This document shows positions 1,949 through 24,083 of a DNA stretch of 64,000 nucleotides, piece by piece; the stretch's first letter is position 1, and each line of letters starts with the position of its first letter. A program made the position numbers and the translations under genes. This stretch comes from Erythrobacter aurantius. GTDB lineage: Bacteria > Pseudomonadota > Alphaproteobacteria > Sphingomonadales > Sphingomonadaceae. The DNA is taken from assembly GCF_023823125.1 (NCBI RefSeq), contig NZ_CP090949.1, forward strand, positions 3,062,001 to 3,126,000. The letters run 5' to 3'. Under the pieces are notes generated by a model, which did not search any database, was not told where the DNA came from, and saw only the letters and a program-made list of their open reading frames with translations.

Positions 1949-1981
1949 GTCTGAAGCAGCCTCCAGCGCTTGAACATTCAT

Positions 1982-3766: not shown

Positions 3767-4957
3767 TCAGAATTCCCGTAATCTCGGTCCCGGCCTGAAC
3801 CTCGGATCCGTCTCTAGGACTAGCACCTTCTTACCCTGTCCCTGGTGCCATCGGAGGTCATAGCGGCTCTCCTCTTCCCAGCCTTGCTGCCTCCTATCTG
3901 TCATGATGATGACTGCTTGGGTCCTCGGACCACAATCTAGAAGGTGACGGCGAAGAAGGCGCATAACTCGCCGAATTCCGAGGTCCGTATAAACGTATCT
4001 CAAGCCCGTCCTTCCAACGGCCAGAACTATTTCATGGCAGGCTTGCCCACCATCACCCGGAATAACATTTACTCTGCCAGAGCCCACGCTTGATAAAGGT
4101 CCCAACTGGCCTCCATTTGCTGTGAGCTCTTCTGCGAGTTGTTCGAAGCCGAAGTGCTCGAGAGCATCAAAAATTCGATGGAGCACCCTCTCGACTTCGC
4201 TTCGTACCTCTGGCGACATATCGCCAAGCACACCTTGGACATCTTCAAACCAACGTGCGGAAGCTAGATGATCGCCTTCTTCGCTAATGCACTCAAAGAG
4301 AGGAGCATAGCGCTCACCAAACGTCTTCTCATCTTTGCCTCGCACCCACGGAACAATGCCCTCGTTGCGAACGAAACTTCGCAACCCTCTTGCCACGCTT
4401 GAACGCTTATCGCCTAACTTCGCGAAGCTTTCAGTCACTATTTTGCTCTCAAGCTCAAGTTCCGGCCGGAAATTTGGGAAGTCATTCTCAAGTGCGAAGA
4501 GTCGTGCCTGCACGTCTCGATGACTGAAAATTATTCCTTCGAAGTGCTCCTCTTGCTGTTCTTCTTCCGGGTCAATCGTCCGTGCAATGACTTCCGGCCA
4601 ATCGTCCAAAGCGAGCCGTTCACTATTCTCTTTGTTCTCCAATAAGGTGACCGCGCGGCCAAGCACGCGATCGAGCGGCCATTGCGCACGCTGTTCTTCG
4701 CACCAACTCGCCTGTTGGGGCCATTTTGCCTCGTAGGCATCAATCAATTCGAGCAAGCGCCCCCGAATATCCAAGACAAAGGATATGGCGTACTTTGTCG
4801 GGATAAACTCTGGAACTAAGCCAAGGCCCTCACCTTCTCCAATTGGAGAAGTTAGACCAAGAACCTGTTGGCCGGATTCGCCGAAGTCCTTGAACGCCTC
4901 AGCCCACCCCTCAAGCTGTTCATTAAGAACAGAAATTTGTGCTTCATATTTATGCAT
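3767..4957 (-). CDS. Uncharacterised 396-residue protein, last gene of the helicase/nuclease operon
   Basis: This protein is rich in Glu and Arg, with a helical N-terminal half (possible coiled coil in the first 40 residues). The C-terminal domain carries the alternating pattern Q-A-V-I-I-M-T-D-R-R and K-K-V-L-V-L-E-T-D, which looks like a Rossmann-type or nuclease-like alpha/beta fold. No diagnostic catalytic motif is evident. It overlaps the preceding gene by 8 bases and is the distal member of the operon that begins at 10805. The 220 bases between it and the proteasome-like gene (3547-3766) hold no gene and no terminator that I can support. Confidence 0.6.
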   Translation of the reverse strand: MHKYEAQISVLNEQLEGWAEAFKDFGESGQQVLGLTSPIGEGEGLGLVPEFIPTKYAISFVLDIRGRLLELIDAYEAKWPQQASWCEEQRAQWPLDRVLGRAVTLLENKENSERLALDDWPEVIARTIDPEEEQQEEHFEGIIFSHRDVQARLFALENDFPNFRPELELESKIVTESFAKLGDKRSSVARGLRSFVRNEGIVPWVRGKDEKTFGERYAPLFECISEEGDHLASARWFEDVQGVLGDMSPEVRSEVERVLHRIFDALEHFGFEQLAEELTANGGQLGPLSSVGSGRVNVIPGDGGQACHEIVLAVGRTGLRYVYTDLGIRRVMRLLRRHLLDCGPRTQAVIIMTDRRQQGWEEESRYDLRWHQGQGKKVLVLETDPRFRPGPRLREF

Positions 4958-5468
4958 GCTTCGCAGTCATGGCTTTAAGTTCATCCTGGATTTGCTTCGG
5001 AGGGGTCCGCGACGGGTTCCCAAGTTCGAAGTCTTCGAAATCCCCCTTGGAGAGGCGTTGGCTGAGACGTCTTAGATGGCGAAGTCTCCGCTCATTCACA
5101 TTGGGGTCCGATGCTTGGCAGGAACCGCCAGAATGACTGTGATCGTGGTAGCAGGTTGCAATCTTGCCGTCTGAAAGTTTCGGAGGCGCTGACTCCAAAT
5201 CAGTGATTGTTTTGACCAGATCATCGTTCACATGGTGGCGGCTGCGTGGCTGGAACTGTGGGTTTACCTGAGTGGCAGCAAAAATGAGCCAACATGTGCG
5301 AGGCACGTTAATCGAATAACGCTCATATTCCTCTTTTGACGTTTCCCCCGACAGACTCAACGAGTCCCAAAAGGAACAGTCGCCATGCTTTCCTTTTGGA
5401 TGCTTCAGCCAATGCGCGTGAAGGCTACTCGGGACCCAATAAGGATCTGTGGCTGGTCTAATCGTCAT
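4950..5468 (-). CDS. Uncharacterised 172-residue protein
   Basis: A small soluble protein with several His and Cys residues (for example C-Y-H-D-H-S-H-S-G-G-S-C around residues 105-116), which could bind a metal ion. No known family was recognised. Its ATG overlaps the stop of the RecB-like nuclease as ATGA, and its 3' end overlaps the next gene by 8 bases. Tight coupling on both sides argues that it is a working component of the same system and not a stray reading frame. Confidence 0.6.
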   Translation of the reverse strand: MTIRPATDPYWVPSSLHAHWLKHPKGKHGDCSFWDSLSLSGETSKEEYERYSINVPRTCWLIFAATQVNPQFQPRSRHHVNDDLVKTITDLESAPPKLSDGKIATCYHDHSHSGGSCQASDPNVNERRLRHLRRLSQRLSKGDFEDFELGNPSRTPPKQIQDELKAMTAKHA

Positions 5469-6955
5469 TTCACGATGAGCTCCTTAATACCATCTAGCAG
5501 TACTCGCGTCGCAATACAGTCATCCTCATTGTAATCGAGAATACGCTGCTTGATCTCATCGTCGCCGGTCGTAATCCAGCGATCAAACCATTCGATCGAG
5601 GCAGCTCCTGACGGATGGGTATCACGCCAATTGAAGCCAAGGTATTTGGCCAAGGTCTTGATGGAGTGGTCTCGGGTGGGCCACTCGGTCGACTTCCTCA
5701 CAACGTCGAAATAGAGATCGACCGACTGGGCTGGATCGAAAAGCTCTTCAATCTCCTCCGCCGAACAGACTGACGGATACTTCTCTTGAAGCTGTCGCCA
5801 GATCGTCCGCTCGTACTTCGAATAGTAATAGATCGCGCATGGTTGCCGCTCTTGGATGAAATGCCATGCCTCACGAAACGCCCGCTCCTCTTCCGCCGAA
5901 CTGATATCCTCAGTTATGAAGGCAAAGTAGCGTTCGCTCGCTTCATCCCCATCCCGTCGTTCAACGAAACCATGCAGGTAGCAGTGGTCACGCATCGGAT
6001 CGACTTCGATATCGAAGAAGAGTTCAATCTCTGCAGTCGGGAATGCGACAGGCTTGGTCAGGTAAGGATCTCCTGACTCCGACGACACGAGCTCCGCACG
6101 GGCGCGAAACTTGCGCAGGGTGTCAGGCCCAATACCTGAAAAGACAGTCTTCTTGCCCCGCACGAATGCTTCGACGTCAGCTCCGGCGAGATGCTCGATG
6201 GTTTCAAACTCCTCGATCAGCACATCGCGCTTCGCTCGCCCAAGCTCTGGAAGCAAGGTCAAGTCTTTCGCGGTATCAAGCTCTTTCAAGCATGCCGAAT
6301 GCCAGTGGCAAAGCTTGCACGGCGCGCCGTAGGCAGCCTTGGTTTGTTGTGATTGCGCGATAATCCCACGCGCCTCCGCGAGGGTGCGCTGGTAGAGCTC
6401 CCAAACGGTCCACGGGTTCCGTATTCCCTGCGGCTCATTCAGGTCATAGGTGATCTCGTCACCATGAACGTCCCACACAAACGGGCGCCTGGAGGCGGAC
6501 AATCCTTTGCGCTCTAGGATATCGGTGTAGAGCGCGAGCTGCACACCATAGTGCTTCTTGAGCGAGGCCGAGTCCTCGGGGCCCTCTTCGCCGCCACCTG
6601 ACTTGATATCGCCTGCGATGTATTTGTCGCCCTCCAGCCGCAGGAGATCAGGATCACCCAACAAGTCATCTGCGCAGATCCGACCAGCATAGATAAGCGG
6701 GACCTTTTGCTCCATGGCCTCTGCCGTCAGGCGCTCTCGCTGGACTCCGGGCTTTCCAGACAGATCCATAAGGGGCAGGCCGACGCAAGCCACCACTTCG
6801 GCCTCATAAGCATTACCCTTTTCCCAAAGGAGCTGTATGAACGGGTTGATTTCGTCGCGCTCTGCTGGGTCCCCAAAAAGGTCCATCGTTGGGCGATGCG
6901 GACATTGCACCAGGTCGTAGAGCATGGCCGCGGTTACTGGCGTGTCGTTAGCCAT
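5465..6955 (-). CDS. TM0106-family RecB-like nuclease fused to an RNase H-like domain
   Basis: The protein has 496 residues. The first half is a RecB/Cas4-type PD-(D/E)XK nuclease: a Cys near 18, G-D-P-D near 100-103, G-D-I-K-S at 115-119, Q139 and Y143 of motif IV, and a C-x2-C plus further Cys near 206-216 that may complete an iron-sulphur cluster with Cys18. The second half has F-F-D-I-E-V near 312 and Y-N-E-D-D-C-I-A-T near 475, the signature of the YprB/RNase H-like exonuclease domain. The ATG at 6955 is preferred to a TTG 15 bases upstream because it forms a TGATG overlap with the previous stop. It lies between an exonuclease and an unknown gene. Confidence 0.85.
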   Translation of the reverse strand: MANDTPVTAAMLYDLVQCPHRPTMDLFGDPAERDEINPFIQLLWEKGNAYEAEVVACVGLPLMDLSGKPGVQRERLTAEAMEQKVPLIYAGRICADDLLGDPDLLRLEGDKYIAGDIKSGGGEEGPEDSASLKKHYGVQLALYTDILERKGLSASRRPFVWDVHGDEITYDLNEPQGIRNPWTVWELYQRTLAEARGIIAQSQQTKAAYGAPCKLCHWHSACLKELDTAKDLTLLPELGRAKRDVLIEEFETIEHLAGADVEAFVRGKKTVFSGIGPDTLRKFRARAELVSSESGDPYLTKPVAFPTAEIELFFDIEVDPMRDHCYLHGFVERRDGDEASERYFAFITEDISSAEEERAFREAWHFIQERQPCAIYYYSKYERTIWRQLQEKYPSVCSAEEIEELFDPAQSVDLYFDVVRKSTEWPTRDHSIKTLAKYLGFNWRDTHPSGAASIEWFDRWITTGDDEIKQRILDYNEDDCIATRVLLDGIKELIVK

Positions 6956-7881
6956 CAGCTCAGCTCCCAAATACGGTTAGAAAAGCGCATCGTTGCAGGC
7001 ACAGGCGATGCCTTAATGGCTCGTTTGTCACCGTAGATTTCGTCCTGAAGCCAAGCCGACTCTCCAGGCAGATCGTCGGTGATGGTCCACCAGAATTTGC
7101 CGAACTGAGTGTCCTGCGCGCGCCACTGATAGCGGCGGCGCTTCAACTGCTCCTTTTTCTCAAAGTCAGCTCCTACTGCCCTGACCAGATGTTCCTGGCG
7201 TTGTGCATTCTTGCGCAGCACATTCATGACCAGCTGCCCAGATTTCGGAAGCGTACGCGTCAGAAGCGCGAGACAGGCTTCGCAATCAGCGAGAGCATCA
7301 TGACCGTCATAGAACCAGCCGAACTGCATTCCGAGGTAGTCGAGTTTTCCGGCAGCGAAGCCCTCGGCTAGCCAATCGACATCTGCGAGTGTGCAAGCCC
7401 AGGGTTTGGCTTCAAAACACTTCCACAGCTTCTCAACCATCGGCCGATCGAATGCAGCATTATGGGCGATGATGAGATCTGCACCTTCCACGAGGCGAGT
7501 GACCTGGGTCTCATCGATCTGTTTGCCGGCGAGGTCATCGTTCTTGATCCCAGTAATCAAACTTGCTTCGGCCGACATAGGGACTGCCGGCTCCCTCAAA
7601 CCCACAAAGGCCTTATCCTTATGGACTGTCAGGATCTTGCCTGTCGCGGCATCATAGGAAAACGGCAGCAGCCCAAGCTGGACGACATCATCGTCTTCCA
7701 GCGACAGACCCGTGGATTCGACATCAACAACCAAGCCGGTCTTGATGACGGCGCCTTCGAGCCGATGGATTTGATCGGGGATCGCCAGGCGCCGCAGCAC
7801 CTTAAAATCCTCAACGTACTTTTCCGCCTCGTCCCTCAAGATCTCCGAGAGGGAGAAGCTGTGCAGATCATCCATGGTCAT
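6955..7881 (-). CDS. DEDDh 3'-5' exonuclease (DnaQ-like)
   Basis: The protein has 308 residues with the four acidic residues and the histidine of the DEDDh family: D53 and E55 in V-V-D-V-E-S-T-G-L, D145 in A-H-N-A-A-F-D, and H194 with D199 in G-H-D-A-L-A-D. The domain spans about residues 45-215 and is followed by a C-terminal extension of unknown function rich in aromatic and basic residues. The ATG at 7881 is chosen because it overlaps the preceding stop as ATGA; a TTG at 7887 is the other option. The gene is translationally coupled to the RecB-like nuclease. It probably degrades single-stranded DNA or RNA ends as part of the system. Confidence 0.88.
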   Translation of the reverse strand: MTMDDLHSFSLSEILRDEAEKYVEDFKVLRRLAIPDQIHRLEGAVIKTGLVVDVESTGLSLEDDDVVQLGLLPFSYDAATGKILTVHKDKAFVGLREPAVPMSAEASLITGIKNDDLAGKQIDETQVTRLVEGADLIIAHNAAFDRPMVEKLWKCFEAKPWACTLADVDWLAEGFAAGKLDYLGMQFGWFYDGHDALADCEACLALLTRTLPKSGQLVMNVLRKNAQRQEHLVRAVGADFEKKEQLKRRRYQWRAQDTQFGKFWWTITDDLPGESAWLQDEIYGDKRAIKASPVPATMRFSNRIWELS

Positions 7882-8039
7882 ACCCAATTCTCCTCTCTCA
7901 GATCCGCCGATTGAACATGCTTCGGTTTGCGCCGGTAAGCAGTCTTCACATTGACACGCTTTGGTCGATACGGCCCTGTGCTCAGCAATGCGGCGAACGC
8001 GTTCCGGCGTTTCGAATGCTCTTGTGACTTCTTTGGCAT
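7878..8039 (-). CDS. Small basic protein (53 residues) between helicase and exonuclease
   Basis: The frame from the ATG at 8039 encodes 53 residues, strongly basic (many Lys and Arg) in the first 40. A GAGGAG Shine-Dalgarno sequence sits 8 bases upstream, within the end of the helicase gene. Its stop overlaps the exonuclease start as ATGA. These signals support it as a real gene even though it is short. No family was recognised. It may be a nucleic-acid-binding accessory factor; that is inference from charge only. Confidence 0.6.
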   Translation of the reverse strand: MPKKSQEHSKRRNAFAALLSTGPYRPKRVNVKTAYRRKPKHVQSADLREENWV

Positions 8040-8049
8040 GGCGTGCTCC

Positions 8050-9927
8050 TCAAGCCTCACCCCTCGCGTGCTCAGCGATCTTCAAGAACCGCGCGAGGCT
8101 TTCGTCAGGAAGCTGCCGATAAAGGCGAATGAGCGTGCTATCGCCTGACTTGAGCACGTCGCGGCGGACGGGGCCGGCCATAGTCTCACCGGCTGCGACC
8201 TCGGCTTCGTCCAGCTCCATGCCGCGGACAATGGCACCAGTTCGCAGTGCGTCATCCAGGCTGAGCGAGAAAGAGGTGCCGAAGGATGTACCGCATGCGT
8301 GGCAATTAGTCGCCGCGACCGGATTCAAGGCACCGCAATCACTGCATGCCTTAAACTTAGGTCCGCCATGGGTTGGAAACACATGGCCGCAACAATCACA
8401 TTCAGCCGCCGTGATGTCGCATTCGCTGTGACAAGCTGGGCATTTCTTCGTTTTCGGCGTGCCTGGGTCTTTGCGCTTGCCTGGCGACATTTCCTGCTCG
8501 ATGCGACGTGCGTAAGCCTCGAAGGTTTCGGTGCAAGGCATGACCACATAAGCGCGGGTATCGTCATCGTGACCTTGCGTGCGCACAACGCGTCCGATTG
8601 CCTGGCGGAAAGCCAACTCAGTGAGCGCATTTGGCAAGTGGACTAGAACCCGAAGGCGCTTGATATCGACGCCTTCCGAAATCATCGCCACCGAGACAAT
8701 CCAGCGCTTATCGGTGTTGCGAAACGCTTTGATCCGCGCGTCCGGATTGTTCATCTGGCTGTGAACAATCATGGGCGCTTCGCCCTCGATCGCTTCGATG
8801 AGCTTGGCCATATACTCAGCCATCTCAATGTTGGGCGCGATCACCAGACCACCGGCATCGGGCATGCGCAGGCGAAGGTCGTCCAGCTTGCGGCTGCCCC
8901 ACTCCAGCATGGTTGCCTGGTAGCCAGTCATCAAGGGCGTCACCCCATCTGCCTCGTACTGAGGGGTGCAAGCGAGGCGGTAAAAATCCAACGCGCTTTG
9001 CAGACCAGGGATACGCTTAAGCTCCTTGGTCAGCTCAGCGGGTTTATGGCTGGCGACTTCGACACTCTCACCTCCGTCCAGGTCGACCGTGAAATGCCCC
9101 TCATGCTTGTGAAAGGTGACAGGACGGCAGTATTCAAGGTCAACTGCCTCACCATATGTGAGCGTGTAAGTGCCGCCCTCAGGATGATCGATCGCCCCGG
9201 CATCATCGTATGCGAGCCAGATAGAGCGCTCGCCATCGGAACGGATCGGTGTGCCGGTCAATACCAGAACATGCTTTGCTTTAGCAAAGGCGCTGTCTGC
9301 GCTGCTTCCCCAAGCAGCCTCAACCGCAGCGTGATGGTGCTCGTCGCAGATGACAAGCGTGCGAGCAGAGTTGCAGATAGCTTGGAAGCCATCTTGCAGC
9401 CCCTGCACAGCTGCCCAAGTCGAGCAGACATCAATGCCAAGGGCATCGATATCACCGTCGGATCCCGTGACCTTGCTCATGAAGCGCCCGGTCACTCGCT
9501 GAAAATCAGCCGACCACTGGTTCACCACTTCAGCGCGCGGTGCGATGACCACAACCCGGTCGATCTCGCCGCGGGTGATCAGCTCCTGTGCGATAGTGCA
9601 GGCTGCAATGGTTTTGCCGGCACCAGGCGCGGCATTGATGATGAAGTGGCGGTCACCTTCGCTCGAGAGCAACCAGGTGAGAGCCTTGTTGAGGGCTTCG
9701 GCCTGCCAATGGCGGAGTTTCATAGTCATCGACTTATTGCCCTTCTTGAGATTGCAGGTCGGGCACAAAGCTTGCCCGTTCTTGGTGATGGTCTTGCCCC
9801 CCTTCGAGAAGGGGAAAATGTGGTCGGCGTGAAAGTCGCGACGCAGCTTGCAGCCGCAGGCATCGCACTGACCGCCAGAAATGAGCGCGAGGATTTTTCG
9901 CTGTCGTTTGCTGAAACATCGTCTCAC
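8050..9927 (-). CDS. HNH nuclease - SF2 helicase - zinc ribbon fusion protein
   Basis: The protein has 625 residues. Residues 21-64 form a complete HNH domain with C21-x2-C24, D35-H36, N50 and C55-x2-C58-N59. A superfamily 2 helicase core follows: A-P-G-A-G-K-T at 100-106, D-E-H-H at 195-198, L-T-G-T-P near 223-227 and Q-A-I-G-R-V-V-R near 460. The C-terminal part has two Cys4 zinc ribbons (four C-x2-C pairs between about 510 and 565). HNH fused directly to a DEAD/H-type motor is unusual; both halves keep their key residues. It starts by overlapping the preceding winged-helix gene (ATGA). It is probably the DNA-translocating and cutting core of the operon. Confidence 0.9.
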   Translation of the reverse strand: MRRCFSKRQRKILALISGGQCDACGCKLRRDFHADHIFPFSKGGKTITKNGQALCPTCNLKKGNKSMTMKLRHWQAEALNKALTWLLSSEGDRHFIINAAPGAGKTIAACTIAQELITRGEIDRVVVIAPRAEVVNQWSADFQRVTGRFMSKVTGSDGDIDALGIDVCSTWAAVQGLQDGFQAICNSARTLVICDEHHHAAVEAAWGSSADSAFAKAKHVLVLTGTPIRSDGERSIWLAYDDAGAIDHPEGGTYTLTYGEAVDLEYCRPVTFHKHEGHFTVDLDGGESVEVASHKPAELTKELKRIPGLQSALDFYRLACTPQYEADGVTPLMTGYQATMLEWGSRKLDDLRLRMPDAGGLVIAPNIEMAEYMAKLIEAIEGEAPMIVHSQMNNPDARIKAFRNTDKRWIVSVAMISEGVDIKRLRVLVHLPNALTELAFRQAIGRVVRTQGHDDDTRAYVVMPCTETFEAYARRIEQEMSPGKRKDPGTPKTKKCPACHSECDITAAECDCCGHVFPTHGGPKFKACSDCGALNPVAATNCHACGTSFGTSFSLSLDDALRTGAIVRGMELDEAEVAAGETMAGPVRRDVLKSGDSTLIRLYRQLPDESLARFLKIAEHARGEA

Positions 9928-10196
9928 TTACTCATCCAGTATTCGGTCAGCTGGATCTCACGCACCGGCAGGTTCTTGGGTGGTTCGAGGACCGCGTATT
10001 CATTCACGCGCTTCACGGCGGCAGCGAACGGGACAGGCCTCGATTCAATGGTCCATCCTTCTTTGCGCATCTCGCTGATGACATCGGTGAGGTTCGAAAC
10101 ACCGAAAAGGACAAGCGCTTCTAGGCGTGTAATCGGGTTCCCACCGTGAAGGTGCTCCTTCACGGCCATCGCTATTCCGTATCGTTGGTTCTTCAT
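9924..10196 (-). CDS. Small winged helix-turn-helix protein (HTH_55-like)
   Basis: The 90-residue protein shows G-N-P-I-T-R-L-E-A-L-V-L-F-G-V followed by a helix with M-R-K-E-G-W-T-I-E-S-R and an N-E-Y-A-V-L wing. This is the pattern of small phage-type winged-helix proteins. It overlaps its neighbours on both sides by four bases (ATGA type). It could bind DNA as a specificity or regulatory subunit; the start of the operon is two genes upstream, so autoregulation is possible but not shown. Confidence 0.7.
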   Translation of the reverse strand: MKNQRYGIAMAVKEHLHGGNPITRLEALVLFGVSNLTDVISEMRKEGWTIESRPVPFAAAVKRVNEYAVLEPPKNLPVREIQLTEYWMSK

Positions 10197-10516
10197 GCTG
10201 CTAGCTCCATCTCGATTGCTTGGTATGGCGGCTTGCGCCGATATGATGGCTCATCGCCACCGAAGAGGGAGCGGACGATGTCACTCTCCCCGTAAAACAC
10301 TTGCCATCCGTCGCCGGAGGCCATGGCCTGGTCGACTGGCAACTCCTCGAAAGTCGCCGGCTGGTCGCGGAATGAACCGAGGGGCATGACGTCCCGGCCG
10401 TCGGCAACATCAACAAGATGCGCCGCCAGTTGCAGAGCTTCCTTTGAGGAGATCTCAGAGCCCAAAGACTCGCGGATCTCGTGATAGAGCTGCTTAATTC
10501 GGCTGGGACGGTTCAT
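10193..10516 (-). CDS. Uncharacterised 107-residue protein
   Basis: The ATG at 10516 has an AGGAG ribosome-binding site 8 bases upstream. A longer frame to 10600 would overlap the upstream gene and add only an Arg-rich stretch, so the shorter form is preferred. The first 45 residues are predicted helical; the rest contains G-D-G-W-Q-V-F-Y-G-E. No family was recognised. It ends in an ATGA overlap with the winged-helix gene and lies 10 bases after the first gene of the operon. Confidence 0.6.
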   Translation of the reverse strand: MNRPSRIKQLYHEIRESLGSEISSKEALQLAAHLVDVADGRDVMPLGSFRDQPATFEELPVDQAMASGDGWQVFYGESDIVRSLFGGDEPSYRRKPPYQAIEMELAA

Positions 10517-10526
10517 GCGCGTTCTC

Positions 10527-10805
10527 CTAGTGTACCGTCGCCGCGGTCGGCGCCGTGTCGGGTTGCTGTTCTTGGGTTGATTGGTCTTCGTCGGCGGCAA
10601 GCTTGCTCGCGCATCCGGACTTCACCCCATCCATCACCACGACCATCGCGAGCTCAGGATTGGGCGCAGCGTCCAGACCCAGGACCATTGCTTCCTGAGA
10701 GAGGGTGAAGCTGATTTCAGCGGCGTTGTAGTCGGCAGCCAGCAGTTGCTTTACAAAGCTGACAATGACGTCGCTGAGCGGTTCGGATGAAGTTTTTTGC
10801 GTCAT
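10527..10805 (-). CDS. First gene of the minus operon: 92-residue protein, unknown function
   Basis: A small acidic protein with a Gln/Glu/Thr-rich tail. No family was recognised. Its ATG has no normal Shine-Dalgarno sequence (only a G run directly before it), yet a near-consensus sigma-54 promoter ends so close that the expected transcript start is about one base before the ATG. A leaderless message is therefore likely if this ATG is used. A downstream start is the alternative, but no convincing in-frame one with a binding site was seen. Confidence 0.55.
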   Translation of the reverse strand: MTQKTSSEPLSDVIVSFVKQLLAADYNAAEISFTLSQEAMVLGLDAAPNPELAMVVVMDGVKSGCASKLAADEDQSTQEQQPDTAPTAATVH

Positions 10806-10816
10806 GCCCCCAACTC

Positions 10817-10833
10817 TGCAGGGAGCGTGCCAA
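10817..10833 (-). promoter_or_regulatory. Sigma-54 (-24/-12) promoter for the nine-gene minus operon
   Basis: Read on the minus strand, TTGGCACG (10833-10826), four spacer bases CTCC, then CTGCA (10821-10817). The conserved GG and GC dinucleotides are spaced exactly as in sigma-54 promoters; only the first T of TTGCA differs. The predicted start is near 10806, against the ATG at 10805. A bEBP gene with an intact GAFTGA loop is transcribed divergently next to it. Confidence 0.72.
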
Positions 10834-10881
10834 ACTTGAGAAGAAGCCTGATCTCCAAAGGCGAATTTCTATAACTGATTG

Positions 10882-10962
10882 CTTTTACATGTTTAAAAGT
10901 CTTGTCGCTCAATGCAGCGCAAATAAGGCCGCAAATTTTCCAACAACCAAATCGTAAAATTT
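10882..10962. promoter_or_regulatory. Intergenic dyads, candidate activator or operator sites
   Basis: Two inverted repeats lie between the divergent genes: CTTTTA-N6-TAAAAG at 10882-10899 and AAATTTT-N16-AAAATTT with arms at 10933-10939 and 10956-10962. They are placed where an enhancer-binding protein could serve the minus operon and control its own gene. AT-rich sequence makes short dyads likely by chance, so confidence is low. Confidence 0.3.
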
Positions 10963-10997
10963 CTTGTGGTTTAGGAGAAAAATGTTACGCAGTCAGC

Positions 10998-12500
10998 ATG
11001 CGCACTCTCTTGGCCTGGATCGGAAACGCAGACCTCAACTCCTCGCGGAACGACGAGGGGCTTGCAGGGCCAATCGGCGGGGCCCTTGCTGTTGGCGACT
11101 ATGAGCAGGTCATCTTGCTTGCCAACTACAAGGACGAAGACGTCAAAGCCTATTCGGAATGGCTTGTCCGCAATGGCGTGCCTCAGCCAAAGATTGAGAA
11201 GGCAAAACTCTCGAGCCCGACGAATTTCCGCGAGATCTACCAGTTAGCAAAGCGCGTGCTGGACGACTTCGCCGCCCAATACGGCAGCACCGACCAATTA
11301 ACGATCCATCTCAGCCCTGGTACGCCGGCCATGGCAGCAGTCTGGATCATCTTGGCAAGGACCAGGACCACAGCACGCCTGATCCAGTCATCGCCAGAAG
11401 AGGGCGTCAAAGAACCTGATATTCCGTTCGACATAGCCGCGGAGTTCATTCCCGATCTTTTCTCTGCGCATGACAAGCGCAGGCTGGAAGAGAGTGGAGA
11501 GAAGCCGCCTGAGGCTGCGAGTTTCTATGACATCAACTATCGAAGCGCGGAGATGGAGCGCAGAGTTCGCGATGCTAAGAAGGCGGCATTGCGGAACTTG
11601 CCGGTATTGATTGAAGGGGAGACGGGGACAGGTAAAGAGCTCTTCGCACGAGCGATTCATAATAGCAGTCCGCGACGCTCTGCGACCTTCCATGTGGTCA
11701 ATTGCGGCGCCATCCCTTCAGAACTGGTCGAGTCCGAATTCTTCGGTCACACTAAGGGGGCATTCACTGGGGCGCTTAAGGAGCGCAAAGGCGCATTTGA
11801 AGCCGCAAATGGCGGAACGCTCTTTCTCGACGAAATCGGTGAGCTACCCCTTGCGGCGCAGGTCAAGCTCCTGCGAGCATTGCAAGAAGGCGAGATAACG
11901 CCTGTTGGCGGGGATAAATCGCGGAAGGTCGATGTGCGCATTATTGCAGCGACCAATCGCAATCTTATGTCGGAAGTTGTCGAAGGGAACTTCCGCGAAG
12001 ACCTCTATTACAGACTGGCCATTGCGACACTGGACCTTCCGCCCCTCAGAGAGCGCGAGGGAGATATCTGGCTCTTGGCGGAGCGCCTGCTTGAACAAGT
12101 CAATCGATCAGCCAGGGAAGAGCCTGGATACAGGCAGAAGAAATTTTCTGCTTCCGCAAAAAAACTTGTCCTAGAGCATTCGTGGCCCGGGAATGTCCGA
12201 GAGCTTCTCAATACAATCAAACGGGCGACACTGTTCGCAGATGGCGATGAGATCAGCGGAGATGACATGCGTCGAGCAATTCGGAACGTGCCCAGCAGCG
12301 CCAGCCCTTCCGACATCGTTCTGAATCAGGAGCTTTATGAAGGGTTTAAGCTCGACGATAAGATCGACCAAGTGAGGCGCCATTACCTGGAGCGAGCGCT
12401 TGAGAAGGCTGGCGAGAATAAGGCCAAGGCTGCCAAGCTGCTCGGCCTTAAGAACGCGCAAAATGTGACGTATTGGCTCGAAAAGCTCAACATTGCATGA
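10998..12500 (+). CDS. Sigma-54-dependent activator with CARF/RtcR-like N-terminal domain
   Basis: The protein has 500 residues from the ATG at 10998; an AGGAG lies 21 bases upstream, so the binding site is not ideal. Residues 1-155 look like a Rossmann-type sensor: M-R-T-L-L-A-W-I-G at the start and [12 protein letters not shown] at 101-112, reminiscent of CARF/RtcR domains that bind nucleotide ligands. The AAA+ domain is complete: G-E-T-G-T-G-K-E at 207-214, GAFTGA at 254-259, L-F-L-D-E-I near 275-280 and R-E-D-L-Y-Y-R-L. The C-terminus has a Fis-like helix-turn-helix. Sigma-54 promoters lie in front of both flanking operons. The CARF assignment is inference; the bEBP call is firm. Confidence 0.88.
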
Positions 12501-12502
12501 CT

Positions 12503-12519
12503 TTGGCACGGCGTTTGCT
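12503..12519 (+). promoter_or_regulatory. Consensus sigma-54 (-24/-12) promoter for the hsdR operon
   Basis: TTGGCACG (12503-12510), spacer GCGT, TTGCT (12515-12519) matches the sigma-54 consensus at every conserved position, with correct GG to GC spacing. It begins 3 bases after the stop of the activator gene. The predicted transcript start is near 12530, which excludes the TTG at 12522 as the hsdR start and supports the GTG at 12546. Confidence 0.85.
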
Positions 12520-12545
12520 TATTGGTCCGGCAAGGAATTCTTGAC

Positions 12546-15500
12546 GTGAAATCTGCGAACTTCGAATTTTTGCGCCCAGACTGGAAGGAGCTGGCAGACC
12601 TCGGTGGTTTCGCTGAGGCCTATGCCTATGCTGATCCAGCGAGCGCGCTAGTGAAGCTCAGGCTTTTTGCGGAGAATCTCACCAAGGACCTCTATCGAGA
12701 TCTGAAACTCCCACGGCCCGAGCAAGCCAACTTCATCGACCTACTGGAGGGCGAGCCATTTGCCAGCATCGTGCCCCGGAGCGTGGTTACTAAGCTTCAT
12801 GCGCTGCGTATGTATGGAAACAAAGCCGCGCACGGCGCGCAGTCCAACACCAGAGATGCGGTCTGGCTTATCAGAGAAGCATTTGAACTCGGCAGCTGGG
12901 CTTACATTCAAGCGAACAAGGGTCAACCGGCCGATCTTCCGCAGTTCTCCGAGGTTCCTCAGACGCCTGGCGGCGAGACCAAAGGTCGGCTCAAACGCGA
13001 AAAGCGTGAGCTACTCGAAAGGCTGGCCAGCCAAGAAGCGCAGATGGAGAAACTTCTTCAGGAGCTGGAGGATGCCAGGAAGGCAACCGTTGCTGCCGAA
13101 GAGTTGAGCGCGCTCAAGAGTTCTTCTGCGGAATTCGAGGAGCCGGAAGAAGATTTGATGGCCTCCTATGCACCGGCAATGGAGCCACTGCAGCCGGCAG
13201 CCTTTAACAAATTTGAAGAAATGGCATGGGTCGCCGAGAAGAGTGCGAACCTCCTCGGGTTCGACGAGGCAACCACTCGCCAGCGCATCATCGACAGCCT
13301 GATCGCAGCGGCGGGCTGGGATGTCGCTAACGGCGATGCCAGTACGAGTGAAGTGGGCAAAGAGATCGAAGTCCCTTCTCAGCCCACTACAAGCGGCCTT
13401 GGATATGCCGACTATGTCCTGTGGGATGACGACGGCACTCCCCTTGCGGTTATCGAAGCGAAGAAAACTGCAGTTGATCCTGAGCTGGGGCGACAGCAGG
13501 CCAAACTCTACGCTGACGGGCTTGAGGAGGCGCATGGCCAACGGCCGATCATTTTTTACACCAATGGCTATGATATCTGGATGTGGGACGATGCTGGCGG
13601 GTACCCGCCGCGCAAGGTCTACGGATATTATTCGAAGGACAGCCTGCAATATCTGGTCAAGTTCCAACGCGAGAGTCGCAAGGCTCTCAACACCCTTGAG
13701 CCGCGCGAAGATGTCGTAAACCGCCTATACCAGATTGAGGCAATCAAGCGCGTCTCAGAACGTTTCACCAACAAGCATCGCAAGGCGCTTGTGGTCCAGG
13801 CGACTGGCACCGGCAAAACACGCGTTGCCATTGCCTTGACCGATCTTCTCATTCGCGCCGGGTGGGTCAAACGCGTCCTGTTCCTGTGCGATCGCCGTGA
13901 GCTCCGGAAACAGGCGAAGAATGCCTTTGGCGACTTTCTAGGTTCAGAACCCATCAAGATTGTAAGCGGGCGCGTCGATAGCTCGGCCAAAGAGCGCATC
14001 TTCTTGGCCACCTATCCTGCGATGAAGAAGGTATTCCAATCCTTCGACGTAGGTTTCTTCGACCTCATCATCGCTGATGAGTCTCATCGAAGCATCTACA
14101 ATGTCTATGGTGACATCTTCACCTATTTCGACAGCCTCCAGATTGGCCTGACGGCAACGCCTGTCGATTTCGTGACGCGCAGCACCTTCGATCTCTTCCA
14201 GTGCGAAGGGCAGCTCCCGACTGCCAATTACGATCTTGAAGAAGCGGTCAACGAGGGATGGCTAACGCCATTCGAAGTCTTTGAGCATACCACGCAATTT
14301 ATGCGCGAGGGAATTTCGCTCGACACCCTGACGGCAGAGCAAATCAAGGAGCTCGAAGAACAGGGAGAAGACCCTTCACAATATGATTTTGCCGCCGAGC
14401 AGATCGACAGCGTCATCTACAACAAGGATACGAACCGCGAGATCCTCCGTAACTTGATGGAAAACGGGCTCCGCGATGCGACCGGACAAACGCCGGGTAA
14501 GAGCATTATCTTTGCGCGCAATCACCAGCATGCAGTCCTACTCCGGCAGCTCTTTGACGAAATGTACCCGCAGTATGGTGGCCGGTTCTGTCAGGTCATC
14601 GACAACTATGATCCGCGCGCCGAGCAGCTGATCGATGACTTCAAGGGTAATGACGACGGCAAGAACGATGAGCTTACCATCGCGATCTCTGTCGATATGC
14701 TCGATACCGGCATCGACATCCCTGAAATCTTGAACCTGGTTTTCGCAAAGCCGGTCAAATCACCTGTGAAATTTTGGCAGATGATCGGCCGCGGCACGCG
14801 CCTGTGTGAAGACCTGTTTGGACCAGGCCAACACAAGACCGTATTCCGGATCTTTGACCACTGGGGCAATTTCGAACGGTTTGAGACCGGATACAAGCCG
14901 GCCGAACCCACTCAGTCGAAGTCGCTCATGCAGCTTGTCTTTGAGGAACGGATCAATCTCGCTGAGCTCGCGCTGCGCAAGAGTGAGCCCGCCATTTTCG
15001 AGACTGTCATTGAACTGATCGGTCAAGACATCAACGATCTGCCTGAGGAGTCGATCGCTGTTCGCGAGAAATGGCGCGAGAAGCGATCGCTAGCAGCTCC
15101 CGAGACACTCAACTCCTTCGCGCCAGCGACCGTGGCAGCCCTGCGCAATACGATTGCGCCGCTCATGCAATGGCGAAACATACGGGGTCATGGCGACGCG
15201 AGTGCCTTTGACCTGTTGATGACGCGTATGCAGAGCGCGCTTCTACGCAATGCAAGCAGCATCGGCGACCTGAAGATCGAAATGCTCGACCGGCTCGGCT
15301 CACTCCAGATGCACCTGAACCCGGTTAGGGAAAAGGCCGAGATCATCAAGACTGTCAAATCGGATGACTTCTGGGAAGATCTGACGGTCGAGAAGCTTGA
15401 AGCGGTCCGCGTGCCGCTGCGCGAGATCATGCGCTACCGCGAGCGTTCAACTGGTACGCCGGTGCCACCAAAGATCATTGATGTGACCGAAGAGACCACT

Positions 15501-16058
15501 GGCGTACAAACCGGACGCCGAAAGGTCGCTCTTAATGCCGTCAATATGAAGGCTTACCGTCAGGTCGTCGAAGGCGAACTTCGCAAGCACTTCGATGAGA
15601 ACCCGACGCTGAAGAAGATCCGCCGCGGAGAGCCGGTCTCTGATGCTGATATCGAGAAACTCGTGTCGCTAGTGCTCGTCCAGTCGCCAGGAGCCAATCG
15701 CGAAATCCTCGAAGAATTCTTCGCTGCGACGGCAGCACCGCTCGATTTCACAATCCGGTCGATCATCGGTCTCGACCCGGAAGCGGTCGAAGGAAAATTC
15801 GCCGAGTTTGCGCGCAAGCATCCCAGCTTGAAGGCCAAGCAAACGAAGTTCCTAGGCCTTCTGAAGAACCATATCTCTCGGTATGGATCGATCACCCGCG
15901 AGAAGCTCTACGAAGCCCCCTTCACGGTCGTCGATGTCGACGGACCAGACGGGGTTTTTGAAAACTCCCAAGACATCGATGAACTCATGGAGATCATCGA
16001 TCAGTTCGCACCGCCCGGCACCTCCGACGGTAGCGAGCAGGCAAGGACGCAAGCATAA
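12546..16058 (+). CDS. hsdR: Type I restriction enzyme R subunit (HsdR)
   Basis: The protein has about 1170 residues. An N-terminal DUF4145-like helical domain precedes the nuclease domain, where D near 287 and E-A-K-K near 302 give the PD-(D/E)XK site. The motor has A-T-G-T-G-K-T near 418-424, D-E-S-H near 509-512 and L-T-A-T-P. The GTG at 12546 follows AAGGA by 9 bases and lies after the predicted sigma-54 transcript start. The gene ends in a one-base overlap (TAATG) with hsdM. The subunit would translocate and cut DNA that lacks the cognate methylation, in complex with HsdM and HsdS. Confidence 0.93.
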
Positions 16059-17581
16059 TGATTACTGGTGAACTCAAGCGCGAAATTGACGCCCTTTGGC
16101 AGGAGTTCTGGCAGGGTGGGATTACCAATCCCTTGACGGTGATCGAACAGATCACCTTCCTGATGTTTGCACGCCTGCTCGACATCAATGAGACGCGTGA
16201 TGAAAATCGCATGCGCCGGACACAAAAACCCTTCAATCGGCGCTTTGATGACAATGAGCAGAGGCTGCGTTGGTCACAGTTTCGGCACCTTGGCGCTGAC
16301 GAGATGCTGCCGCTCGTTCGCGATGAAGTCTTCCCACACTTCCGCAAGTCCTCCACGAGCGGCACGGCCTTCGCCGAGTTCATGAAAGACGCGCAGTTAA
16401 TGATCCAGAAGCCGAGCCTTCTGGTGAAAGCGGTCAACATGATCGACAAACTGCCGCTGACCGAAGGGGACACGAAAGGTGACCTCTACGAGTATCTGCT
16501 GAGCAAGCTCACCACGGCGGGCATAAACGGGCAGTTCCGCACTCCACGCCATATCATTCGACTGATGGTCGAGATCCTCGATCCGAAGCCAACCGAGACG
16601 GTGTGCGACCCCTCTGCCGGTACGGGTGGCTTCCTCGTCGAGACCATGCAGTATCTTTTGAAGGAAAACACCTCCCCTGAAGGGATCATTGAGGAGACGG
16701 ATCCAGAAACTGGAGCGGTCGAGAAGATCTACACCGGCGATCTTCTCGAAGATCATCGCAAGCATATCCGCGAAGAGATGTTTCACGGCTTCGATTTCGA
16801 CGCCACCATGCTGCGCATCGCGGCCATGAATATGATGCTGCACGGCGTGGATGACCCTGACATTCACTATCAGGATACTCTCAGCGGCAGCTTCAGCGAC
16901 CGATATCCAAAATCGGCGAGCAATGGGTTCGATGTAGTACTCGCCAATCCGCCGTTTAAGGGAAGCCTTGATTTTGAGGACGTCGATCCCGGCCTTCTCC
17001 GGAAGGTGAAGACCAAGAAGACCGAACTCCTTTTCCTCGTGCTCATTCTGCGCATGCTGAAGACCGGCGGCCGGTCAGCGACGATTGTGCCCGATGGCGT
17101 GCTCTTTGGCTCGTCGACCGCGCACGTCGCGCTACGCCGGCAGCTGCTCGATGAGAACCAGCTCGAAGCGGTGATCTCCCTGCCAAGTGGGGTCTTCAAG
17201 CCATACGCTGGTGTCTCAACTGGCATCCTGGTATTCACCAAGGGCGGCCGGACCGACAATGTCTTCTTCTATGATGTGGAGGCCGACGGCTTCTCGCTAG
17301 ACGACAAGCGCGATCCTGTTGAAGCGAATGATCTGCCAGGCTGTCTTGAAGCTTGGAAGAACCGTGATCCGCTCAAAGATACAGATCGGACCCAGAAGGC
17401 ATTCTTCGTGCCGGCGGAGGACATTCGCGAGGCGAATTATGACCTATCGCTTAGCCGATACAAGGAACTCATCTATGAGGAGGAAACGTATGACCCTCCT
17501 GCAGAAATCCTCAAACGCATGAAGGACCTCAACGACGAGATCAGCGAAGATCTCGTTGAACTTGAGAGGCTACTTGGATGA
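16058..17581 (+). CDS. hsdM: Type I modification methyltransferase subunit (HsdM)
   Basis: The protein has 507 residues. An N-terminal helical HsdM_N domain is followed by D-P-S-A-G-T-G-G-F near 184-192 (SAM binding) and N-P-P-F near 296-299 (N6-adenine methyltransferase catalytic motif). Length and order are those of standard HsdM proteins. It overlaps hsdR by one base and hsdS by four, so the three subunits are made together. It methylates adenine in the sequence chosen by HsdS. Both motifs are intact, so activity is expected. Confidence 0.95.
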
Positions 17582-18669
17582 CTGCGACAATCCCTTTGGG
17601 CGACCTTGTCGAAATTAAGGGCGGCGGAACGCCCAGCCGTGCTCAAAGTACTTTTTGGGATGGCCCTATCCCGTGGGCGACTGTGAAGGATTTCAAGACC
17701 ACGACACTAGATCGCACAATCGAAACGATCACCGAAGCAGGTCTAAACAATTCGTCCGCGAACCTAATTCCTGCGGGCTCGATTATCGTGCCAACGCGCA
17801 TGGCGGTGGGAAAAGCCGCCATCAACAACATTGATATCGCCATCAATCAGGATCTCAAAGCGCTCTTGCCGAATGCAGCAATAGACAGACGCTTCCTACT
17901 ACATTTCCTCGTTTCAAAAAGTGAGTTCCTCAATTCCCGGGCCCAAGGCGCGACAGTCAAAGGGATCAAGTTGGATGTTCTAAGAGAGCTTCCGGTTCCT
18001 GATCTTCCAACCAGCGAACAGCAACGCATTGCTGCGATCCTCGACAAGGCAGACGCCATTCGCCGCAGGCGTGAGGAAGCTCTCAGCTTGGCGGATGCGT
18101 TTCTGCGGTCAGTATTCCTGGATATGTTTGGAGATCCTGTCACGAACCAGAGAGGTTATCGGCAAATTCCTTTGGGAGAGATCATAAAGGTTTCGAGTGG
18201 CAATGGCCTCACAGCAAGGATGATGGATCCAGAGGGAAAATACCCTGTTTACGGTGGCAACGGCATCAATGGCTGTCACGCCGAATATATGTTCGAGGAA
18301 CCGCAGATAGTCATCGGTAGAGTGGGAGTTTATTGCGGCGCTGTTCACGTCAGCAAGCCAAAATCTTGGATTACAGATAATGCCCTGTACGTTAAGGAAT
18401 TTAGGATTCCAATCAACCGAACCTACCTCGAATGGGCTCTACGATTTGCAGATCTTAATCAGTACGCCGGGCGAGCGGCTCAGCCGCTAATTTCTGGAAG
18501 CAGAATTTACCCTGTAGAGATTGTCGTCCCCGACGATAACGAACAAGCAAAGTTTGAGTGTGTCGTTCATCAGCATGAAGAGCTCGTAGCCTCTCTCCGA
18601 TCCGCTTCGGCAAAAGCGAACGACTTGTTTGGCTCGCTTGCGCAGCGCGCGTTTCACGGCGAGCTGTAG
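17578..18669 (+). CDS. hsdS: Type I specificity subunit (HsdS)
   Basis: The protein has 363 residues with the two-repeat architecture of specificity subunits. The first target-recognition domain starts [15 protein letters not shown] and ends in the central conserved helix with [15 protein letters not shown]. The second starts I-P-L-G-E-I-I-K-V near 197 and ends in another helix near 330-360. It is a bit shorter than typical 400-residue forms but shows no truncation. The target sequence cannot be read. It begins in an ATGA overlap with hsdM. Confidence 0.92.
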
Positions 18670-18678
18670 GAACAGAAA

Positions 18679-20547
18679 ATGCGTCTCAGTCATATCGAAA
18701 TCGAGAACTTCAAAGGCATAGGAGCGAAGCAAAGCATCGACCTTGCACCAATCACGCTGCTTTTTGGCCCAAACAGTGCCGGCAAGAGCACGATACTTCA
18801 GGCTCTGCATTACCTTCGTGAGATTCTTGAAAGAAACAATCCTGACCCGGATCAAACTATCGCTGGTGGTCTGACGGACCTCGGTGGCTTTGCTACGCTC
18901 GTACATAATCATGATCTGAGCCAGCCGATCCGTATTAAGGCTCGCCTCGACCTTTCCGAAGATCAGGGCAGCGATCTGCTCCCTTTGAATTCGGGTGTGC
19001 GCTGGAAGGATGATGAGTTTTCGCAGCTGGGTATTCGCTATCTAATAGGAGAGAACACCGAGCTCCGCGACTATGCCGTCGTCCAAGAGATTGGTCTTGA
19101 AATCGAGGTCAGGTGGAGTGATCTCGCTGGCGGTCCATATGTGCCATCCATCTCAGTCGAGATAGATGGCGAGCACCTAGCCGAAATCGTCTCACCAGCG
19201 CAGCCAGGACGCGCACGTTTGTGTAACATCGCGTTTGATCATCCTATTCTTAGACCAATCCTCGATCCACTTGAGGATGAACAGCTTGACCTAGATGACA
19301 AAGAGAGTCCGCTAAAAGAACAGTTTTTAGACCTCTCAAGACTGATGTCTATGGTCCCAGGCTTGCAAGGAAAGCCGCTCGAACTTGGCTCCGGCGTAAG
19401 CGGTGCACTAAGAAATCAACTAAGAGAACGACTGAGCGCAACCAACTCTCGGGATTCCAAGTTCGAACCCATTTATGACGCTGAAGAAGTCGAAAAGTCA
19501 TCCTATGCTGTTGCAGTCGCGACCGAATTCGGTGCTCTGCCGAATATCGATCGTCCAATGGAGGTCGATCTCAGGGACATTGATCCAGATGACATTGCAG
19601 AAGCTGAAGCAAGTTTACCAGACTTCTTCCAAAGGCCTGGAACAGGGAAGACTCAGAGAGCTATCGATATTGAGATGAAACGCCGGCGAGGGTTGTCCGA
19701 GCTTCTCGACGAGTTGGTGCTCGGACCTGTGAGAGTTGTTCGCGATTACCTGTCAACGATGACATACATCGGCCCCCTCAGGGAAATCCCAAACCGCGCC
19801 TACAAGCCACGACTTTCACCTGATGAATCGCGTTGGGCTCAGGGACTCGCTGCCTGGGATATACTTTACACCCAACCAACCGACGATCTCTTAGACGTTG
19901 TAAATGGGTGGATGTCATCAAGCGAGCGGCTGCAAACAGGGTATCGCCTTAGCAAAATCCAATCGAAACAGATTCCAACCTCAAGCGGCTTTCATCAACT
20001 GTTCCAGCGTGGGATCGAGGAAGACGATCTGGGCGACTTGCAAGAGCTCTACATGTCGATGCCAACGTCGACAGAAATTGCTCTGGTAGACGTTAACCGG
20101 GGCACCATGGTTTCGCCTAGCGACGTAGGGGTAGGCATTTCTCAGATGGTGCCTGTAGTGGTTGCCTGCCTCATGGAGCCAAAAGGCCTCGTGGCGATCG
20201 AGCAACCTGAATTGCATATCCATCCCGCAATTCAGGTGGGCTTAGGAGACCTATTCATTGAGGCAACTCAAGGGCCTCAACCCGCTATTGGCGCGGAACG
20301 AACAGTGCTGATTGAGACCCACAGTGAACACCTTATGCTCCGGCTTCTTCGGCGTGTTCGAGAGAAGACCGACAACGAACTTTCTCCTGGATTCAAAGGT
20401 CTTACATCAAGGGACCTGTCAGTCATCTACGTCGACAACGACACCCAAGGGACCCAATTCAAGAAACTGCGAGTCAGTGAGGATGGTGACTTCCTTGATC
20501 GTTGGCCTCGTGGCTTTTTCGATGAACGGGCGGAGGAGCTTTTCTAA
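18679..20547 (+). CDS. AAA/SMC-like ATPase (DUF3696/OLD-like) downstream of hsdS
   Basis: The protein has 622 residues. The N-terminus I-E-I-E-N-F-K-G-I-G and G-P-N-S-A-G-K-S-T at 30-38 give an ABC-type Walker A. Near 503 the sequence V-A-I-E-Q-P-E-L-H-I-H-P is the Walker B with D-loop-like histidines, and I-E-T-H-S-E-H near 545 is the switch. No TOPRIM domain follows, so it is not a full OLD nuclease. It starts 9 bases after hsdS and overlaps the next gene as TAATG, so it belongs to the sigma-54 operon. Such ATPases serve as sensors or motors in several antiphage systems; here the partner is the PLD-like gene. Confidence 0.82.
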   Translation: MRLSHIEIENFKGIGAKQSIDLAPITLLFGPNSAGKSTILQALHYLREILERNNPDPDQTIAGGLTDLGGFATLVHNHDLSQPIRIKARLDLSEDQGSDLLPLNSGVRWKDDEFSQLGIRYLIGENTELRDYAVVQEIGLEIEVRWSDLAGGPYVPSISVEIDGEHLAEIVSPAQPGRARLCNIAFDHPILRPILDPLEDEQLDLDDKESPLKEQFLDLSRLMSMVPGLQGKPLELGSGVSGALRNQLRERLSATNSRDSKFEPIYDAEEVEKSSYAVAVATEFGALPNIDRPMEVDLRDIDPDDIAEAEASLPDFFQRPGTGKTQRAIDIEMKRRRGLSELLDELVLGPVRVVRDYLSTMTYIGPLREIPNRAYKPRLSPDESRWAQGLAAWDILYTQPTDDLLDVVNGWMSSSERLQTGYRLSKIQSKQIPTSSGFHQLFQRGIEEDDLGDLQELYMSMPTSTEIALVDVNRGTMVSPSDVGVGISQMVPVVVACLMEPKGLVAIEQPELHIHPAIQVGLGDLFIEATQGPQPAIGAERTVLIETHSEHLMLRLLRRVREKTDNELSPGFKGLTSRDLSVIYVDNDTQGTQFKKLRVSEDGDFLDRWPRGFFDERAEELF

Positions 20548-21482
20548 TGCACTCCGAATACGCCGTAGAGCCCACTGCTATTGGATCTGATTGGCCAACC
20601 TTTAAATATCTCATTGAAAAGTTTAGTTTCGATAAGGGGCGCCTGATTTCTCGCTTGCCTTCGAAATGGGAAAAGAAGGTTATCGCCGCGGCCAAGGACG
20701 CAAACCTTTCAGACGTCCAGATCTCAAGCATCATCGAAAGGCTGAAAAGTACCAAGAAAGCGCGTGTCTTCGATCTGGGGCGCAAAATTGAGAATGGTGA
20801 AGATTGGATCGATAGCGTGTTGAGGGAGCATGCAAGCCGGCCATTCCGAGGGATCATTTGCAAGGAAAAGCCAACTGGTTGCGCCGAGGCACTCACGGCA
20901 GATGATTGCGACGACGACCACCCGCTCTTCAAGGTGTCGAGAAGTCGAGATGTGAACCGCGTGGCCGATGAGATTTCTGACGCGCTCTTCTTTCTCTTAG
21001 CCCCTGCAACGGAGATAGATGTAGTCGATCCATTCTTTGACCTCCGGCCGAGCAAAGGGGATTTTTTGGGTCCTATCGCTGCATTGCTTGCCAAACTGGC
21101 GGCAGCAGGGTTCTCCGACAAGACGCTTCGGATTCACTATCGAACTCATGATTCGAGGCCTCCCGATCATATGGTTGCCAAGGACGCGCCAGGCTTAACG
21201 GCCGGCCTTATTCCGCCAGGCTTCAAGCTACAGCTCTTTGAATGGGCGGAGATCGAGGGCGGGAAAGACCTTCACGATCGGTTCTTTCTTACGAATTTTG
21301 GCGGCATCCAAATTGGAATTGGTCCCGCAGCGGCAGCTGAAGGCAAAGACACCACGTTCACACTCCTTGATGATGACCATGCCCAAGATTGGCGATCACG
21401 CTTTGAGCTAAATGCGACAATCTACAATCGAATTGGGCGCATCGTGGAGATAGACTCTCAAGGCAATGTGGCGCTCATCTGA
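20547..21482 (+). CDS. Putative PLD-like effector protein coupled to the ATPase
   Basis: The protein has 311 residues. The segment K-D-L-H-D-R-F-F-L-T-N-F-G-G-I-Q-I-G-I-G near 240-259, preceded by I-D-V-V-D-P-F-F-D near 155, resembles the half-site of phospholipase-D-type nucleases, but the second Lys of HxK is replaced by Arg (H-D-R). It starts inside the ATPase stop codon. Its role as effector is inferred from the pairing. The 186 bases that follow, up to the DUF3489 gene, hold no gene. Confidence 0.6.
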   Translation: MHSEYAVEPTAIGSDWPTFKYLIEKFSFDKGRLISRLPSKWEKKVIAAAKDANLSDVQISSIIERLKSTKKARVFDLGRKIENGEDWIDSVLREHASRPFRGIICKEKPTGCAEALTADDCDDDHPLFKVSRSRDVNRVADEISDALFFLLAPATEIDVVDPFFDLRPSKGDFLGPIAALLAKLAAAGFSDKTLRIHYRTHDSRPPDHMVAKDAPGLTAGLIPPGFKLQLFEWAEIEGGKDLHDRFFLTNFGGIQIGIGPAAAAEGKDTTFTLLDDDHAQDWRSRFELNATIYNRIGRIVEIDSQGNVALI

Positions 21483-23997: not shown

Positions 23998-24083
23998 TGC
24001 TCCCTGTTATGGCCCATTAGCAAGCCAACGACCTGGCACGGCAAGTGCGGGTGAGCCCAAAGTTCATTCCGCACTTGGATGTA

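Follow-up and report, generated by a model that had tools for sequence, protein, structure and literature searches.

The window, by which we mean the whole stretch of 64,000 nucleotides of DNA analysed here, holds two divergently oriented runs of genes with the gene of a putative sigma-54 activator between them (Table 1). The activator frame is intact and carries the motifs GETGTGKE and GAFTGA, in agreement with the preliminary description, which had claimed a bEBP with an intact GAFTGA loop at this position. The protein falls into the RtcR_PspF2 type of PADLOC: the profile PDLC01995 matched over its full length (627 bits, residues 1-499 of 500), the AAA+ sigma-54 motor has Walker A and GAFTGA, and the predicted model of the N-terminal sensor has a CARF fold. 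Because the full-length fold search returned matches almost entirely to the AAA+ part, the CARF part was modelled alone, and the structure search with this model returned the CARF proteins Csm6, VC1899, Cdn1, Can2, Cad1 and Csa3 as top VIA matches, bearing out the resemblance to CARF/RtcR proposed for the sensor. A PDB sequence search with the CARF part yielded nothing useful, and the C-terminal HTH_8 scored 19.9 bits, below the Pfam cut-off of 22.

Table 1. Genes, predicted promoter motifs and predicted activator-binding sites (UAS) of the locus, in order of position in the window
Feature	Positions	Strand	Evidence or remark
Gene of 396 aa, last of contiguous run	3767..4957	-	no family match
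Gene of 172 aa	4950..5468	-	no family match
TM0106-type RecB-like nuclease + RNase_H_2	5465..6970	-	TIGR03491 220 bits
DEDDh exonuclease gene, predicted ATG start 7881	6955..7881	-	RNase_T; DEDDh 79 bits
Small ORF, 53 codons, bridging helicase and exonuclease genes	7878..8039	-	
Fourth gene, HNH + DEAD/ResIII helicase, 625 aa	8050..9927	-	in L010, L011, L045
Third gene, winged-helix HTH_39, 90 aa	9924..10196	-	in L010, L011, L045
Second gene, 107 aa, predicted ATG start	10193..10516	-	no match; conserved in L010, L011
First gene, 92 aa	10527..10805	-	no match; 88-90% identical in L010, L011
Sigma-54 promoter motif, divergent operon	10817..10833	-	TTGGCACG-CTCC-CTGCA; conserved in L010, L011, L045
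Predicted UAS before activator gene	10950..10971	.	20.9 bits, de novo palindrome search; 128 bp from minus promoter
CARF-AAA+-HTH sigma-54 activator, RtcR_PspF2 type, 500 aa	10998..12500	+	PADLOC
Predicted UAS inside activator coding sequence	12132..12153	.	14.3 bits; 361 bp before plus motif
Second predicted coding-sequence UAS, 20 bp further on	12152..12173	.	15.5 bits; 341 bp before plus motif
Sigma-54 promoter motif, hsdR	12503..12519	+	TTGGCACG-GCGT-TTGCT; position shared by most relatives
hsdR, type I restriction subunit, predicted GTG start	12546..16058	+	PADLOC REase_I 979 bits; HSDR_N, ResIII, EcoEI_R_C
hsdM	16058..17581	+	PADLOC MTase_I 605 bits
hsdS	17578..18669	+	Methylase_S; Specificity_I 209 bits
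AAA_21 ATPase, recurrent R-M partner	18679..20547	+	NsnB 148 bits; BLAST cluster 36 members among neighbours
311-aa partner of ATPase	20547..21482	+	BLAST cluster 25 members among neighbours

In E. coli and Salmonella RtcR the CARF domain represses the AAA+ sigma-54 motor, the target being a sigma-54 promoter with a UAS, and the E. coli protein needs RtcA and RtcB (PMC9650030). The window activator differs from RtcR with its rtcBA targets: it misses the NCBIfam RtcR equivalog cut-off (357.7 against 650 bits), rtcA and rtcB had no matches in the host genome, and its putative targets are restriction genes. Since rtcA and rtcB are absent from the genome, a mechanism dependent on RtcAB as in E. 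coli was set aside. The one Cas10 model used, TIGR02578, also had no match in the genome. The AAA+ part of the activator model aligns to the solved structure of PspF, and PspF, the regulator of the psp operon, lies divergent from its target as the activator does here. The targets of PspF differ from those of the window activator, and PspF consists of AAA+ and HTH parts only, with no CARF domain (PMC4012209).

On the plus strand, genes that overlap or sit 9 nt apart encode the R, M and S subunits of a type I R-M system, all of which could be identified as had been claimed for this side, followed by the AAA_21 ATPase and the 311-aa protein, the latter having no match in Pfam, PADLOC or NCBIfam. 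Full HsdR, HsdM and HsdS are present as in EcoKI-like systems, whose gene order is R-M-S; unlike in those systems, hsdR has a sigma-54 motif in front of it and the operon is extended by the AAA ATPase and its 311-aa partner. In many loci the same ATPase and 311-aa genes (18679-21482) are met again, either behind R-M genes or immediately behind the activator. Beside the operon, at 21624-27512, lie genes for DUF3489, DUF2924, a large serine recombinase, a ParB/methylase and a terminase-like protein, which are mobile-element or phage-like genes. None of the 19 window proteins scanned with Pfam formed an McrBC pair, the activator alone giving a weak AAA_5 match and no McrC-type match being found.

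The minus run from 10805 to 3767 is joined by overlaps or gaps of about 10 nt and is followed by a gap of 220 nt before two more genes. The nine-gene operon described previously is recovered as eight listed ORFs plus the ORF of 53 codons at 8039-7878. A scan of positions 1900-12600 for sigma-70 promoters and terminators remained at the level of shuffled sequence (3 promoter-like matches against 5.1, and 11 terminator-like against 10.4). In relatives, the activator was accompanied only by the first part of this operon. L010 and L011 have genes 1-4, the contig of L011 ending inside gene 4, and L045 (Thiobacillus) has genes 3-4 by BLAST, with ORFs of comparable length at the positions of genes 1 and 2. 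The helicase has only general helicase/nuclease matches in PADLOC (up to 54 bits), and its phage and plasmid searches returned only places with <60% identity and <80% coverage. A second nuclease system had been suggested on this side; no strong defence-family match was obtained for the minus operon genes scanned, but judged by gene content and company, a role as a second defence system is plausible. In L010 the Zorya genes zorA, zorB and zorC lie about 240 nt past the helicase gene (L010:2740-6811), and that locus has no further sigma-54 motif of at least 13 bits.

Both sigma-54 motifs of the window show the GG-N10-GC spacing, exactly at the places where the preliminary description had put them, and RpoN is encoded in the host genome (one match). 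The TGG of the plus motif begins 3 nt past the activator stop codon. Zero-mismatch matches to TGGCACGN4YTGCW in the window are these two motifs only, and the longer TTGGCACGN4YTGCW has five exact copies on both strands of the 3.42-Mb genome, two of them at this locus and 1.7 kb apart; the reversed control pattern has no copy across the whole genome. Another exact sigma-54 motif (G000:C1:2841490-2841506) lies about 170 nt from an activator-type match at 2840652-2841323.

Here we compared the locus with its relatives, taking the best 80 of 266 loci from a CARF-domain search of genome contigs, which together with seven plasmid loci, two from the window's own family and the window made 90 loci. 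Those 80 with an intact activator 3' end, the window included, entered the counts; ten were dropped, L045 among them. Loci L090, L091, L092 and L102 were excluded because they duplicated loci of the set or were alternative cuts of them. The counts are taken over related loci with kinship ignored, control ORF ends are those of uncurated open frames of at least 200 aa, and neighbour classes by BLAST cover 71 of the 80 loci, the nine loci L093-L101 being without BLAST data. Another 18 loci were fetched after the models had been fixed, of which three duplicates were dropped, leaving 15, several of them closely related to each other. The activator gene is rare in the window's family (4 of 249 genomes, the window's included), and a search of viral contigs matched 49 stretches with none confirmed as relatives.

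Unsupervised expectation maximization on the region between -10 and +110 of the activator stop, with no motif supplied, recovered TGGCACGNNNNTTGCT, a result independent of the textbook sigma-54 weight matrix that was used for counting at a threshold of 12 bits. At this threshold a motif was found between -25 and +65 of the activator stop in 61 of 80 loci as opposed to 6 of 1120 control ORF ends, and 44 of the 61 lie 0-4 nt past the stop; the divergent upstream motif was present in 20 of 79 loci against 1 of 79 on the opposite strand. The preliminary description had proposed to judge its reading by the loss of both motifs in homologous loci, and the motifs were kept at these frequencies. When the plus search was extended to +265, both motifs were present in eleven loci and neither in six. 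The two-mismatch versions of the motif occur in the window at chance rate (32 matches at up to two mismatches against 25.6 expected), as they should if the motifs were due to chance or were ordinary sigma-54 promoters unlinked to defence, but this explanation has to face the genome count of exact versions and a position at the stop codon that is conserved over phyla, and we give it next to no credence. Chance origin was rejected on the exact-match genome count and the positional controls.

The gene most commonly found 3' of the activator is hsdR (40 of 80 loci by BLAST), and 38 of these 40 have a motif of at least 12 bits, the two others, L060 and L070, scoring 9.5 and 11.7. The AAA_21 ATPase takes this place in 10 of 80 loci, nine of them with the motif. 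For loci outside the BLAST data, the annotation shows R-M genes in L093 and, following the activator, helicase, methylase and S genes in L096-L098. Other genes behind such sigma-54 motifs are Druantia III DruH, after an ARPP-1 gene (L018), a CBASS effector and cyclase (L101), VWA-PP2C-kinase genes (L094) and a TPR protein (L015). Sigma-54 control of a restriction system had been called unusual in the preliminary description, a judgement that cannot be maintained with hsdR as the commonest neighbour and with an association already published in 2014 (PMC4012209).

A palindrome search in the 250 nt upstream of the activator gene (79 loci) yielded sites like ACACAAGA/TCTTGTGT, with a log-likelihood of 291 against 36 for shuffled bases. 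Half-split training with 60 seeds recovered the palindrome from both halves and found it in 24 of 39 and 30 of 40 held-out upstream regions; with 12 seeds, one of the two halves converged on an A-tract. At 11 bits, a predicted UAS precedes the gene in 58 of 80 loci (background 0.037 per kb), the window having a single one, and in 57 of 80 the coding sequence itself contains one, in most cases 326-380 nt upstream of the stop, although the matrix had been trained on upstream regions and never on coding DNA. The pair of coding-sequence sites spaced by 20 bp is complete in only 23 of 80 loci (11 bits). Coding-sequence site and near plus motif occur together in 49 loci, the motif alone in 12, the site alone in seven and neither in 12 (Fisher P 0.001, kinship ignored). 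Among nine divergent-only loci three have the site (L039, L060 and L070), two of these with weaker plus motifs. In the 15 fresh loci, at 12 bits, coding-sequence sites were found in seven of nine with the plus motif and in one of six without it, this single locus (L111) having a plus motif of 11.5 bits; upstream UAS were predicted in 12 of 15, some at unusual distances. On these grounds a palindrome near ACACAAGAATTCTTGTGT is likely to be the activator site.

The palindromes in the coding sequence could merely reflect conserved amino acids, with the upstream site serving both promoters through long-range looping. The stretch does encode conserved residues such as K381, 14% of the window's synonymous shuffles reach 11 bits, and three of the six loci that lack both promoter motifs at 12 bits keep the site (L014, L042 and L053). 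However, synonymous shuffles of the region 270-430 nt before the stop gave an expectation of 5.35 against 50 observed among the 65 loci with a plus motif, the score of the window's pair was reached by none of 100 shuffles, and in L071 and L073, whose plus motif is more distant from the stop, a 20-bp pair is intergenic, 60-150 bp before the motif. We regard this explanation as improbable, and protein conservation as the main cause of the coding-sequence sites was rejected by the synonymous shuffles.

A natural contrast is offered by L010 (Aurantiacibacter) and L011 (Croceicoccus), whose activators are 89-90% identical to that of the window. Both retain the divergent motif and the predicted upstream UAS; neither has hsdR in the available locus DNA, a plus motif (the sequence there being TGGTCCAGCGCTCGCC, degraded or never present) or either of the two predicted coding-sequence UAS. 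Cross-activation by other sigma-54 activators is possible in principle, and the host genome holds seven other matches to the activator's sigma-54 motor, so both motifs might be true sigma-54 promoters driven by one of these while the CARF protein controls something else. Set against this are the joint lack of plus motif and coding-sequence pair in L010 and L011 and the co-occurrence of palindromes, plus motif and activator type across phyla, and we think such an arrangement highly improbable.

Comparison among the loci establishes the predicted promoter motifs and palindromes, their positions and their coupling. We favour, with considerable confidence, a ligand-gated sigma-54 switch in which the activator would drive both operons through the palindromes and the sigma-54 promoters. 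By analogy with RtcR, the CARF domain is expected to keep the AAA+ motor switched off as long as it has bound no signal, the signal perhaps being made during phage attack or RNA damage, and the restriction locus would be silent before that. The activator oligomer would then bind the ACACAAGA-type palindromes. The upstream site would serve the divergent promoter and, because it lies just before the activator start codon, probably also controls the activator gene, while the pair at 12132-12173 would serve the hsdR promoter 340-360 bp downstream, a distance longer than is usual between UAS and promoter. Upon activation, RpoN polymerase would transcribe hsdRMS and the genes of the AAA ATPase and its 311-aa partner in one direction, and the helicase-nuclease genes in the opposite one.

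In another reading the locus is no off/on switch, the R-M genes being transcribed mainly from another, constitutive promoter and the sigma-54 promoter only boosting hsdR. A silent hsdM would leave the host chromosome unmethylated on induction, and a promoter would fit in 10 of 34 loci, where the distance from hsdR to the start of hsdM exceeds 50 nt. In the other 24 of 34, however, the two genes overlap or are separated by at most 50 nt (BLAST ends), and in the window they overlap, so that methylation may be induced together with restriction. We consider a constitutive promoter rather unlikely and retain the ligand-gated switch.

RtcR-like CARF-NtrC activators beside R-M systems were published in 2014 (Makarova, PMC4012209), with the prediction that they act through sigma-54 on downstream genes and sense products of infection. 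That class (RtcR_PspF2 in PADLOC) resembles the window in domain order and R-M neighbours; the word 'promoter' is absent from the main text of that paper, to which the window would add the promoter position, a divergent second promoter, activator sites and a coding-sequence enhancer. In the CoCoNuT superoperons an RtcR-like gene neighbours type I R-M, Druantia III and other systems, all oriented the same way (PMC11090510, 2024), 'promoter' appearing once in the main text, whereas the window has a divergent second operon together with predicted sigma-54 motifs and activator sites at the DNA level. A 2025 survey of sigma-54 regulons (PMC12316311) contains none of the terms 'restriction', 'RtcR', 'CARF' or 'hsdR' in a term search, and the literature searched, to which the 2020 CARF census does not belong, holds no description of these promoters or activator sites in the text available. 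Both the gene neighbourhood and the notion of control by sigma-54 were already known (2014, extended in 2024 for CoCoNuTs), and the present analysis adds the predicted promoters and activator sites.

More broadly, we see an even chance that the locus represents a portable sigma-54 immunity switch, in which a CARF activator with its own enhancer code, partly in coding sequence, controls type I R-M, Druantia III, CBASS, the AAA-ATPase pair and other systems across phyla, sometimes two of them through divergent promoters, upon induction by a signal. Restriction systems are usually regarded as always on, and sigma-54 promoters need an active activator to fire. If such a portable switch exists, type I R-M would be a silent second line of immunity, with restriction and methylation genes switched on together. 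The DNA evidence points to a whole family of restriction systems placed behind sigma-54 and a CARF sensor. Should hsdM be silent too, one has to ask how the cell avoids cutting its own unmethylated genome on induction, or whether self-cutting is intended. The promoter motifs and predicted sites provide exact, testable bases for the window as well as dozens of relatives, and they offer a reporter for screening the CARF signal.

Several observations at the relatives deserve mention. In L101 (11075-12894) a CBASS 2TM effector and cyclase lie directly behind the divergent motif (16.1 bits) of the CARF activator. A divergent family of genes of 559-626 aa adjoins the activator in six loci, namely L063 (8162-9841), L031, L047, L055, L060 and L077; the one member scanned, that of L063, has no Pfam or PADLOC match, and the family is a candidate new effector. 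With +1 placed 12 nt past the C of GC, the first ATG of the minus operon (10805) is the predicted +2, so the minus transcript would be nearly leaderless. Under the same convention the first ATG falls at +1 to +6 at 27 of 61 downstream and 9 of 20 divergent sites, raising the question of near-leaderless mRNAs or an unusual start at these loci, and a Shine-Dalgarno-like run is centred before +1 at 12 of 61 downstream and 3 of 20 divergent sites.
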